From Bacillota bacterium (GTDB lineage: Bacteria; Bacillota; Desulfotomaculia; Desulfotomaculales; Pelotomaculaceae), in NCBI GenBank assembly GCA_029555205.1, contig JAKPTB010000151.1, forward strand, positions 1 to 64,000: a DNA stretch of 64,000 nt. Direction: 5' to 3'. The position numbers and the translations under genes were made by a program. This document shows positions 2,063 to 37,191 of the stretch, piece after piece; within the stretch, counting starts at the first letter, position 1, and the number at the start of each line of letters is the position of its first letter. The notes under the pieces were generated by a model. That model ran no database searches. It saw only the letters and a program-made list of their open reading frames with translations, and was not told the origin of the DNA.

Positions 2063-2143
2063 TCTTGATAAAGGCAAGACATTTTATAAATGCCTTATTA
2101 TCACCACCGGCTTTTCAGAGGAAAGCCCTGTAGCAAAATCATT

Positions 2144-2309
2144 CAGGCAGGTCTCCTGACTCATGGATCAACGCGTACTCCCCGCCTTCCCGGGCATATT
2201 ATTTACCCAGTGGCATTCCAGGAGAGCCACTACCCACTCACAGTGGCCGGACCGTCCGGGACTTTCACCCGGTTCCCTCTTAATCCCGGCGAATGCCGGA
2301 ATTACCTGA
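2144..2309 (-). promoter_or_regulatory. Cobalamin riboswitch (distal copy, nearly identical to 1798..1963)
   Basis: Same B12-box and GAGTCAGGAGACCTGCCTG elements; differs from the proximal copy at only a handful of positions by eye. Confidence 0.93.
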
Positions 2310-2380
2310 ATGGATTATCATTTTTATCATATTTTAGCAGAGTTTATCGTCCCTGTCCATGATATTTTTTTGAAAAAAGT

Positions 2381-11145: not shown

Positions 11146-11228
11146 TTTCTGCCATTACCCCCCATTTTTCAAAATAAATAGCGCTTCGCCATAAAGGGAA
11201 GCGCTAAACAAGTACATATATAGTATCG

Positions 11229-11316
11229 CTACAATCCCTCCGCTGGCATTACCCAGATCAGGTTCATTGGGTCAGAACAAATAGTTCTTTCTCAGCCGAT
11301 AACTCAGCTCCCCATG
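11229..11316 (-). promoter_or_regulatory. TPP riboswitch (THI element)
   Basis: Reverse complement GGGGAGCTGAG...GGCTGAGAAAG...GACCCAATGAACCTGATCTGGGTAATGCCAGCGGAGGGATTGTA. Confidence 0.97.
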
Positions 11317-11884
11317 ACAGTATAAAGTTTTAATTATTGTAACACTTGGATAATGATATTTAAAGACATTTTTTAAAAGTTTTATCAATTTAAAAAAATC
11401 CATCTAAAGCTAATCAAAAAAAAATGACCCTTACCAATTTAAAGGGTCTAAATATAGGGGTAGAAGAAGTTGGAGTTTAAAAGCTAAATTGTTTAATCAG
11501 GATAGGGAATAGACAATTCCCTATCACTGGATAAACACACAGTAAAATTATATTACATACAAAGATTGTTTTCCTTTACTATAGTATATAGTAATACAAC
11601 AAAAAAATAAAGAGTTGTTATGCCATTTTTAAAAAAATTTTTTCAAGAAACAGGTATCCCAGTTGATTTTTTAGGGACCCGGCAGATCAGCTATTTATAA
11701 AGCATTTGCTCAGATCTGGAACAGGACAGCCAACCTTTCAACATTCCTGATGAGCCAGGCATGGCAGACTAAAACACGGCCAGATCCGGCAGTTGGTCAA
11801 CAGCTGGTTGCCCCTAAGTCCATCATGCAGGTAAACCAAAACCCCGGGAAAGATCCGCCGGGGCTGTTGATGACTCTCAAATTT

Positions 11885-19664: not shown

Positions 19665-20312
19665 TTACTTGCCGCGGGATTCGAACTGCCTCATGCCCAG
19701 GTTGAAGGTTAAAATTTCAAGGTTGACCGACAAATCTACGTTCCGCAGCTCAATATGCTCTGGCACATTTAAGGAAACAGGCGCAAAATTCAAGATGGCA
19801 ACCAGGCCGTTTTTTATCATCAGGTCTGCAACTTCCTGGGCTGCTTTGGCCGGAACCGCAATAATACCAATTTTTACATTGTGCTTGGCAATTATTTCGG
19901 GCATTTTTTCCGGAGGACTGACTTCCATATCGACAATTTTTTTACCGATTTTAGTCAGGTCATTGTCAAAAATCCCGACAACGGAGAAACCGCGGTTGTT
20001 AAATCCCTTGTAAGTGCTTAAGGCAAAGCCGAGGTTGCCGGCTCCGACCAGCACCAGGGGCCAGGGCTCGTTGAGATTCAGGATTTTGGAGGTATAATGC
20101 ATCAGGTCCCTAACATTATAGCCCACACCCCGGGTTCCGAATTCACCGAAGTAGGCCAGGTCCTTTCTTACCTGGGCGGGACTGACGCCTACTCCGTCTG
20201 CAATCTCAACCGATGATATGGTAATAACGCCTTTTCTGTCTAATTGTTCCAGATACCGTGAATAAACAGACAACCTTATTATGGTAGCCTCTGGTACCCT
20301 GAGTGTTTTCAT
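19665..20312 (-). CDS. rex: Redox-sensing transcriptional repressor Rex
   Basis: [51 protein letters not shown]. Confidence 0.97.
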
Positions 20313-25118: not shown

Positions 25119-25424
25119 TTACAGATCCTTTGAGAGCAACGCCGTTTTAACTTTAACACCCGCAATTCCGCCCAGTTTTCCACTTAAGGCTCCGATTTCA
25201 TCGGTGGAACCGTCGATAATCAAGGAGATTACCGATAAATCACGCTCCCTGTAAGGAATACCCATGCGTCCTACGATAATTTCGCTGTATTCACTGAGAA
25301 CGCTGTTGATTTTCCTGGAGGAGTTCTCCCTGTTTTCCACGATCACTCCAATAATCCCAATGCGCCGCGCCAAATCTTCACCTCCCCCACAACTCTCTCC
25401 ATAAAGAAAGCCCCTTTTCCGCAA
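25119..25424 (-). CDS. TM1266-family iron-only hydrogenase system putative regulator
   Basis: ARRIGIIGVIVENRENSSRKINSVLSEYSEIIVGRMGIPYRERDLSVISLIIDGSTDEIGALSGKLGGIAGVKVKTA; first gene of the hyd operon; start may be the internal TTG preceding ARRIG. Confidence 0.9.
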   Translation of the reverse strand: MRKRGFLYGESCGGGEDLARRIGIIGVIVENRENSSRKINSVLSEYSEIIVGRMGIPYRERDLSVISLIIDGSTDEIGALSGKLGGIAGVKVKTALLSKDL

Positions 25425-25440
25425 TGCGAAAAAAGGGCCT
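25401..25440 (-). terminator. Intrinsic terminator (attenuator) in the hyd operon leader
   Basis: GGCCCTTTTTTCGC-ATT-GCGGAAAAGGGGC followed by TTTCTTT on the minus strand, immediately 5' of the TM1266-like gene. Confidence 0.7.
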
Positions 25441-25557
25441 GGTTAGCCGTCTGTTCTCCTTGAGGTCAGGAACTTCCCTTTTTCGCAGAGCTTAATTAAG
25501 ACCCTCCGGGACAGGACCCGCCCATACCCGTCAGGCTGACTTTTCTGTTTTGATTTT

Positions 25558-25591
25558 ATTATATACTTTTAATTTGTGTTTTCAATCACAA
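25558..25591 (-). promoter_or_regulatory. Putative sigmaA promoter of the hyd operon overlapped by a Rex-operator-like palindrome (25574..25591)
   Basis: Minus strand TTGAAA-N16-TATAAT; TTGTGTTTTCAATCACAA fits the TTGTG-N8-CACAA Rex operator pattern. Confidence 0.65.
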
Positions 25592-37093: not shown

Positions 37094-37191
37094 GGGGGTG
37101 GATGGTGCCTGGTGGTGCTCCTGGTCTTCAAAACCAGTCGTGGGGCAGCGCTCCTGTCCCTGGTGGGTTCGATTCCCACACACTCCCGCCA
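37094..37191 (+). tRNA. selC: tRNA-Sec (TCA)
   Basis: GGGGGTGGATGGTGCCTGGTGGTGCTCCTGGTCTTCAAAACCAG (anticodon TCA), long variable arm TCGTGGGGCAGCGCTCCTGTCCCTGG, GTGGGTTCGATTCCCACACACTCCCGCCA. Confidence 0.93.

Follow-up and report, generated by a model that had tools for sequence, protein, structure and literature searches.

A widespread two-hairpin leader RNA with a predicted terminator switch in front of [FeFe]-hydrogenase maturation genes

Introduction

How the H-cluster is assembled is a question at the heart of hydrogen biology, and we know of no control of this process at the RNA level. Among the closest described systems, Rex sites have been reported ahead of the gene of a putative hydrogenase system regulator in Clostridium thermocellum, with support from Caldicellulosiruptor bescii (PMC8457756), and tandem tungsten-cofactor riboswitch types have been reported in front of hydrogenase genes (PMC9481103). 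No riboswitch or motif of hydrogenase maturation was found in the open-access main texts searched, and an earlier description elsewhere is possible.

The locus analysed here belongs to a member of the Pelotomaculaceae, and ‘the window’ denotes the whole analysed stretch of 64,000 nucleotides (assembly GCA_029555205.1, contig JAKPTB010000151.1, positions 1 to 64,000). The initial annotation of its [FeFe]-hydrogenase maturation operon proposed dual control, by Rex at the promoter and by a terminator/antiterminator leader, and missed the main point, namely that this leader belongs to a widespread class of two-hairpin RNAs that has a regulon of its own.

Results

The maturation operon and its promoter

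The maturation cluster lies on the minus strand and comprises, in order behind the leader, a TM1266-like gene (TIGR03959, 25119..25373), hydF (TIGR03918, 23640..24965), hydE (TIGR03956, 22634..23686), hydG (TIGR03955, 21121..22527) and then, on the same strand but not necessarily the same transcript, a YbjQ-family gene and rex, the gene of the redox-sensing repressor (NF003993 equivalog, 19665..20312, 325.7 bits versus a cut-off of 217). The family of the TM1266-like protein carries the name of a putative regulator and shows weak similarity to the family of nickel-responsive regulators. The start of this gene, picked from an alignment of relatives, is the TTG codon at 25373, which together with the ribosome binding site GGGGGAGGTG occupies 25371..25388 (minus strand); the start of the raw open reading frame at 25424 was rejected because the frame would run through the terminator. 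Two features mark the gap between the TM1266-like gene and hydF (25118-24966, minus strand): another terminator-like hairpin (25003-24989), the second at this locus, and a near-repeat, AAAGGATCTGTAAGGTTTT / CAAAGGCTCTGTAAGTTTTT, which the congener G002 seemingly lacks. No second copy of the RNA described below was detected in this gap. Elsewhere, the window encodes tandem cobalamin riboswitches (1784-1979 and 2129-2324, minus strand; 133.6 and 126.9 bits), a TPP riboswitch (11217-11324, minus strand) and a selenocysteine tRNA (37094-37187, plus strand).

A sigma-70 type promoter, TTGAAA-N16-TATAAT (25585..25558, minus strand, 11 of 12 positions matching), is the sole promoter-like match on the minus strand in the 1.4 kb scanned. 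Its -35 element is overlapped by a predicted Rex-type operator, the perfect palindrome TTGTGATTGAAAACACAA of the form TTGTG-N8-CACAA (25591..25574), and Rex is encoded in the genome. The palindrome is present in three of the four congeners checked (G002 and G003 keep both half-sites, G001 has lost it), and counts across the host genome reveal no enrichment of the pattern (3 sites versus 2 for the reversed-pattern control). A Rex layer is plausible, local and of a known kind; it appears ordinary because comparable sites have been reported in C. thermocellum and C. bescii (PMC8457756).

Anatomy of the leader

Counted from the predicted start site, the start codon is reached after about 175 nt and the terminator after about 110 nt. 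The leader consists of a hairpin P1 (CCUGA...GGAGGGUC, 25535..25500, minus strand), with 5 doubly changed pairs in 38 sequences; a hairpin P2, the most conserved core (CUCUGCGAAAAAGGG...CCUGACCUCAAGGAG, 25490..25456, minus strand), in whose lower stem 99.1% of the cells are paired and C-G is exchanged for U-A and A-U for G-C; and an intrinsic terminator (hairpin 25440..25408, U-rich tail to 25403, minus strand). The antiterminator strand UGCGAAAAAGGG lies inside P2 (25487..25476, minus strand), and its complement, CCCUUUUUUCGCA (25437..25425), forms the terminator 5′ arm. All the elements that the initial annotation had read from this region are borne out at their stated places, namely the promoter, the TTGTG-N8-CACAA site over its -35, the strong terminator 5′ of the TM1266-like gene and the upstream segment able to pair with the terminator 5′ arm, and the best promoter, with its predicted start site, lies upstream of the hairpins rather than downstream, the placement that would have spoken against a leader; the leader length of about 125 nt given there is replaced by the values above. 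The leader is kept in all three congeners at 79 to 94% identity. Folded as a single sequence, it is unremarkable (z of -0.83 and 0.61), and the predicted structure draws its support from comparison of relatives.

A conserved two-hairpin fold

Among the leaders of the same family (n=14), conservation is concentrated in two blocks, CCUGA...GAGGGU and UCUGCGAARAAGGG...CUCAAGGAG, and the remainder drifts. An alignment of 38 leaders from several families, made on sequence alone (A2), supports the two hairpins. Both are closed by CC(U.G) adjoining tandem mismatches of the G.A type: P1 is built of CC/GG beside an invariant U.G, followed by the mismatches and then by a helix in which G-C, A-U, C-G and U-A pairs are all found, and P2 of YCC/GGR beside an invariant U.G, a GM/AA loop, a G-C and a variable pair, and an upper stem. 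The variable pair is A-U, G-C, G-U or C-G and is paired in all 38 sequences. In A2, 93.8% of the cells are paired, compared with 81.3% in shuffled and at most 74.8% in slid alignments, and the covariation score is 0.448, compared with 0.200 +/- 0.014 for shuffled alignments and 0.185 for the best slid one.

An alignment of 21 sequences from outside A2, built without structural information, recovers both hairpins and shows 10 doubly changed pairs, although this set and the later ones carry a mild bias because they were found with structure-containing models. Several families (f2, f8, f16) lack P1, so that P1 is optional and P2 required; in genus g49 of family f16, a second copy of the RNA, with its own terminator, lies downstream of TM1266. 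The 5′ leader thus contains a conserved, covarying, aptamer-like fold.

Neither the window leader nor those of 16 relatives matched an Rfam 15 family at the gathering cut-off, in agreement with the initial view that the leader is not a recognised riboswitch class; Rfam matches of the window leader with E above 1 were dismissed as chance.

The switch and its platforms

The 5′ strand of P2 pairs with the 5′ arm or the loop of the terminator. In the window, UGCGAARAAGGG pairs with CCCUUUUUUCGCA; the partners differ between families, with GGAGAAGGGC pairing with GCCUUUUUCC in L097, UGCGCCAAAG with CUUUGGCGC in L193 and the GGCAAACAGG-type with the CCUGUUUUCC-type in family f4. Across 24 families, the own pairing has a mean of -14.3 kcal/mol, compared with -10.9 +/- 0.57 kcal/mol for pairings with the terminators of other families (0 of 4000 swaps), in a test of the P2 5′ strand against terminator arm plus loop that was narrowed after a first look. 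The first version, in which the whole of P2 faced the terminator 5′ arm alone, gave a weak result (median rank 0.32) because in some families the partner sits in the terminator loop. A few families (f2, f16a, f49, f81) lend the antiterminator pairing no support in the swap test.

In the complete window leader, P2 plus the terminator is favoured by 6 kcal/mol, and when the terminator 3′ arm is removed, the minimum-energy fold is the antiterminator. By computation, the platform and the core fold are mutually exclusive, and the window very likely contains a genuine terminator/antiterminator switch. In three relatives (L316, L339, L353), the 3′ strand of P2 continues into AGGGGAGG immediately ahead of a start codon, and control there is probably translational because this strand runs into the ribosome-binding region; P2 would hide the ribosome site on this platform.

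The RNA half of the originally proposed dual control is therefore reinforced and extended, in that the alternative pairing co-evolves across 24 families and the fold covaries far beyond the shuffled and slid controls; the Rex half is weaker, with the palindrome in three of four congeners and no genome-wide enrichment.

Distribution and gene contexts

A covariance model built from the 14 same-family leaders (R1) found further copies within the order, nearly all before the TM1266 gene. A wider model, R2, matches in 75 of the 113 genomes of the class and in 46 of the 399 genomes of a phylum sample, and a third, R3, in 93 of 397 genomes of that sample. TM1266 is encoded in 91 of these 93 RNA-bearing genomes against a background of 200 out of 398; the probability of such co-occurrence is about 1e-30 under independence of genomes, which does not hold. 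R2 finds 35 matches in 80 named TM1266 loci; 34 of them are on the strand of the gene and at most 320 nt upstream or 100 nt downstream of it, compared with the expected 2%. These loci include Halanaerobium and metagenome-assembled genomes labelled Desulfofervidaceae, Syntrophales and Lentisphaerae, and with R3, Treponema, Geosporobacter and Alkaliphilus join the list. Among cultivated relatives, Desulfotomaculum copahuensis and Halanaerobium saccharolyticum carry the RNA (L226, L302). Of the TM1266-bearing genomes in the phylum sample, more than half give no match, so that either the RNA is absent from part of them or the model is blind to divergent forms.

TM1266 is the usual first gene behind the RNA, and nearly all of the inspected matches precede TM1266, HydE, HydF, HydG, AspA or an ABC transporter of the SsuABC type. 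Away from TM1266, the RNA is found before HydG (L166, L170, L338, L340, L343, L349) and HydE (L337, L339, L341, L350); it also precedes AspA (L181, L314) and SsuA/NMT1-type ABC transporters (L068, L075, L167, L168, L323, L342, L355). The RNA thus fronts genes of one pathway in many species. AspA has a reported role in the pathway, with ammonia-lyases taking part in the synthesis of dithiomethylamine (PMC11736057). L323 runs from the RNA through permease, ATPase, binding protein, TM1266 and HydE to HydF, and in L346 a transporter of the SsuA/NMT1 type lies downstream of TM1266; being under the RNA or inside maturation operons, the SsuABC-type transporter is likely to be a part of H-cluster assembly.

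Several contexts differ from the usual one. In L166 and L170, HydG has its own RNA elsewhere in the genome, and the same genomes contain an RNA-bearing TM1266 locus. In genome G075, the RNA precedes the gene of a 182-aa protein without a Pfam match (L171, 6235-6783, minus strand). A good R3 match in Fuchsiella alkaliacetigena (L229, 5734-5827, minus strand, 39.7 bits) lies on the strand opposite to TM1266 and perhaps serves a divergent operon; L352 has a similar divergent arrangement, with the RNA fronting HydG. Weak covariance-model matches (L172-L175, L309-L311, L313, L325, L351) were discarded as coding sequence, low-complexity repeat or a CRISPR-like array by their context.

Discussion

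That a real, widespread and structured cis-regulatory RNA accompanies [FeFe]-hydrogenase maturation is close to certain. In the mechanism that we propose, this hyd-maturation leader would control the genes of H-cluster assembly: as long as P2 holds, the terminator would form and transcription would stop ahead of TM1266-hydFEG; when P2 opens, the antiterminator would form and the operon would be read. In relatives in which the P2 3′ strand enters the ribosome binding site, P2 would block translation. A stable P2 would thus mean OFF on both platforms, the arrangement that feedback from a product or precursor of H-cluster assembly would call for, with that molecule perhaps binding P1/P2. In the genus of the window, Rex would probably add NADH/NAD+ control at the promoter. 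Taken as a whole, an undescribed RNA class with P1/P2 and a terminator switch that exerts feedback on H-cluster assembly is the best explanation and a highly probable one. Direct sensing of a small ligand, which would make the leader a true riboswitch, appears somewhat more probable than its opposite, and there is about an even chance that the RNA represents a new class of riboswitch whose ligand is an H-cluster intermediate, building block or product, or else the small molecule taken up by the SsuABC-type transporter, and which thereby feeds back to maturation.

The sensor might instead be a protein, with the TM1266-like protein or a maturase binding P1/P2 and setting the terminator, so that the leader would be an autoregulatory protein site. 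The near-constant company of TM1266 (91 of 93 RNA-bearing genomes, usually as the first gene behind the RNA), the naming of its family as a putative regulator with weak similarity to the nickel-responsive one and the two similar motifs in P1 and P2, which could bind a dimer, all fit such a scheme; however, the RNA also fronts HydG, HydE, AspA and ABC transporter operons with TM1266 elsewhere in the genome, and about half of the TM1266 genomes have no detectable RNA, so that we consider protein sensing rather unlikely. An element of RNA stability or processing, or simple attenuation coupled to the translation of the leader, in either case without a specific sensor, would account for a strong hairpin that ends the leader before the gene and for the ordinary single-sequence fold strength, but invariant internal-loop letters, a swap-tested antiterminator and family-specific platforms are unexpected of a stability hairpin, and the leaders that were read share no conserved leader peptide, which makes this reading improbable.

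The possibility that Rex is the sole real regulator and the leader incidental draws on the perfect palindrome over the -35, the rex gene in the same cluster and the reports from C. thermocellum and Caldicellulosiruptor bescii (PMC8457756); it is very improbable, given that the congener G001 has lost the palindrome yet keeps the leader and that the RNA spans the phylum whereas the operator is found only in three of the four congeners checked.

The predicted regulon of the RNA comprises TM1266, HydE/F/G, AspA and the SsuABC-like transporter. The last of these had not been tied to the H-cluster pathway before; the regulon defined by the RNA turns it into a new component that can be tested, and helps to confine the search for a ligand. 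Should the leader be a riboswitch, it could serve as a biosensor for H-cluster precursors and as a handle for the engineering of hydrogen production.

Compared with known systems, the locus resembles the Rex regulation of hydrogenase genes in the form of the operator, its place over the -35 and the rex gene in the cluster, but Rex acts at the promoter and its site is not conserved together with the leader. With the PyrR and PyrG leaders it shares the terminator-type layout and a weak, chance-level alignment of the terminator hairpin; however, the window leader scores 15.9 and 19.1 bits against gathering cut-offs of 54 and 65, and the genes are different. The molybdenum and tungsten cofactor riboswitch is a case of metal-cofactor control in anaerobes, but it has no Rfam match to the leader, and the genes behind the leader are those of H-cluster maturation. 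As for the leader itself, its nearest parallels in kind are among the riboswitches. With the transcription-attenuation riboswitches it shares the conserved core, the variable platform, the mutually exclusive antiterminator and terminator and the one-pathway regulon, and, further, the probable translational platforms of some relatives; it differs in matching no Rfam 15 family and in having a two-hairpin CCU/G.A fold of its own.
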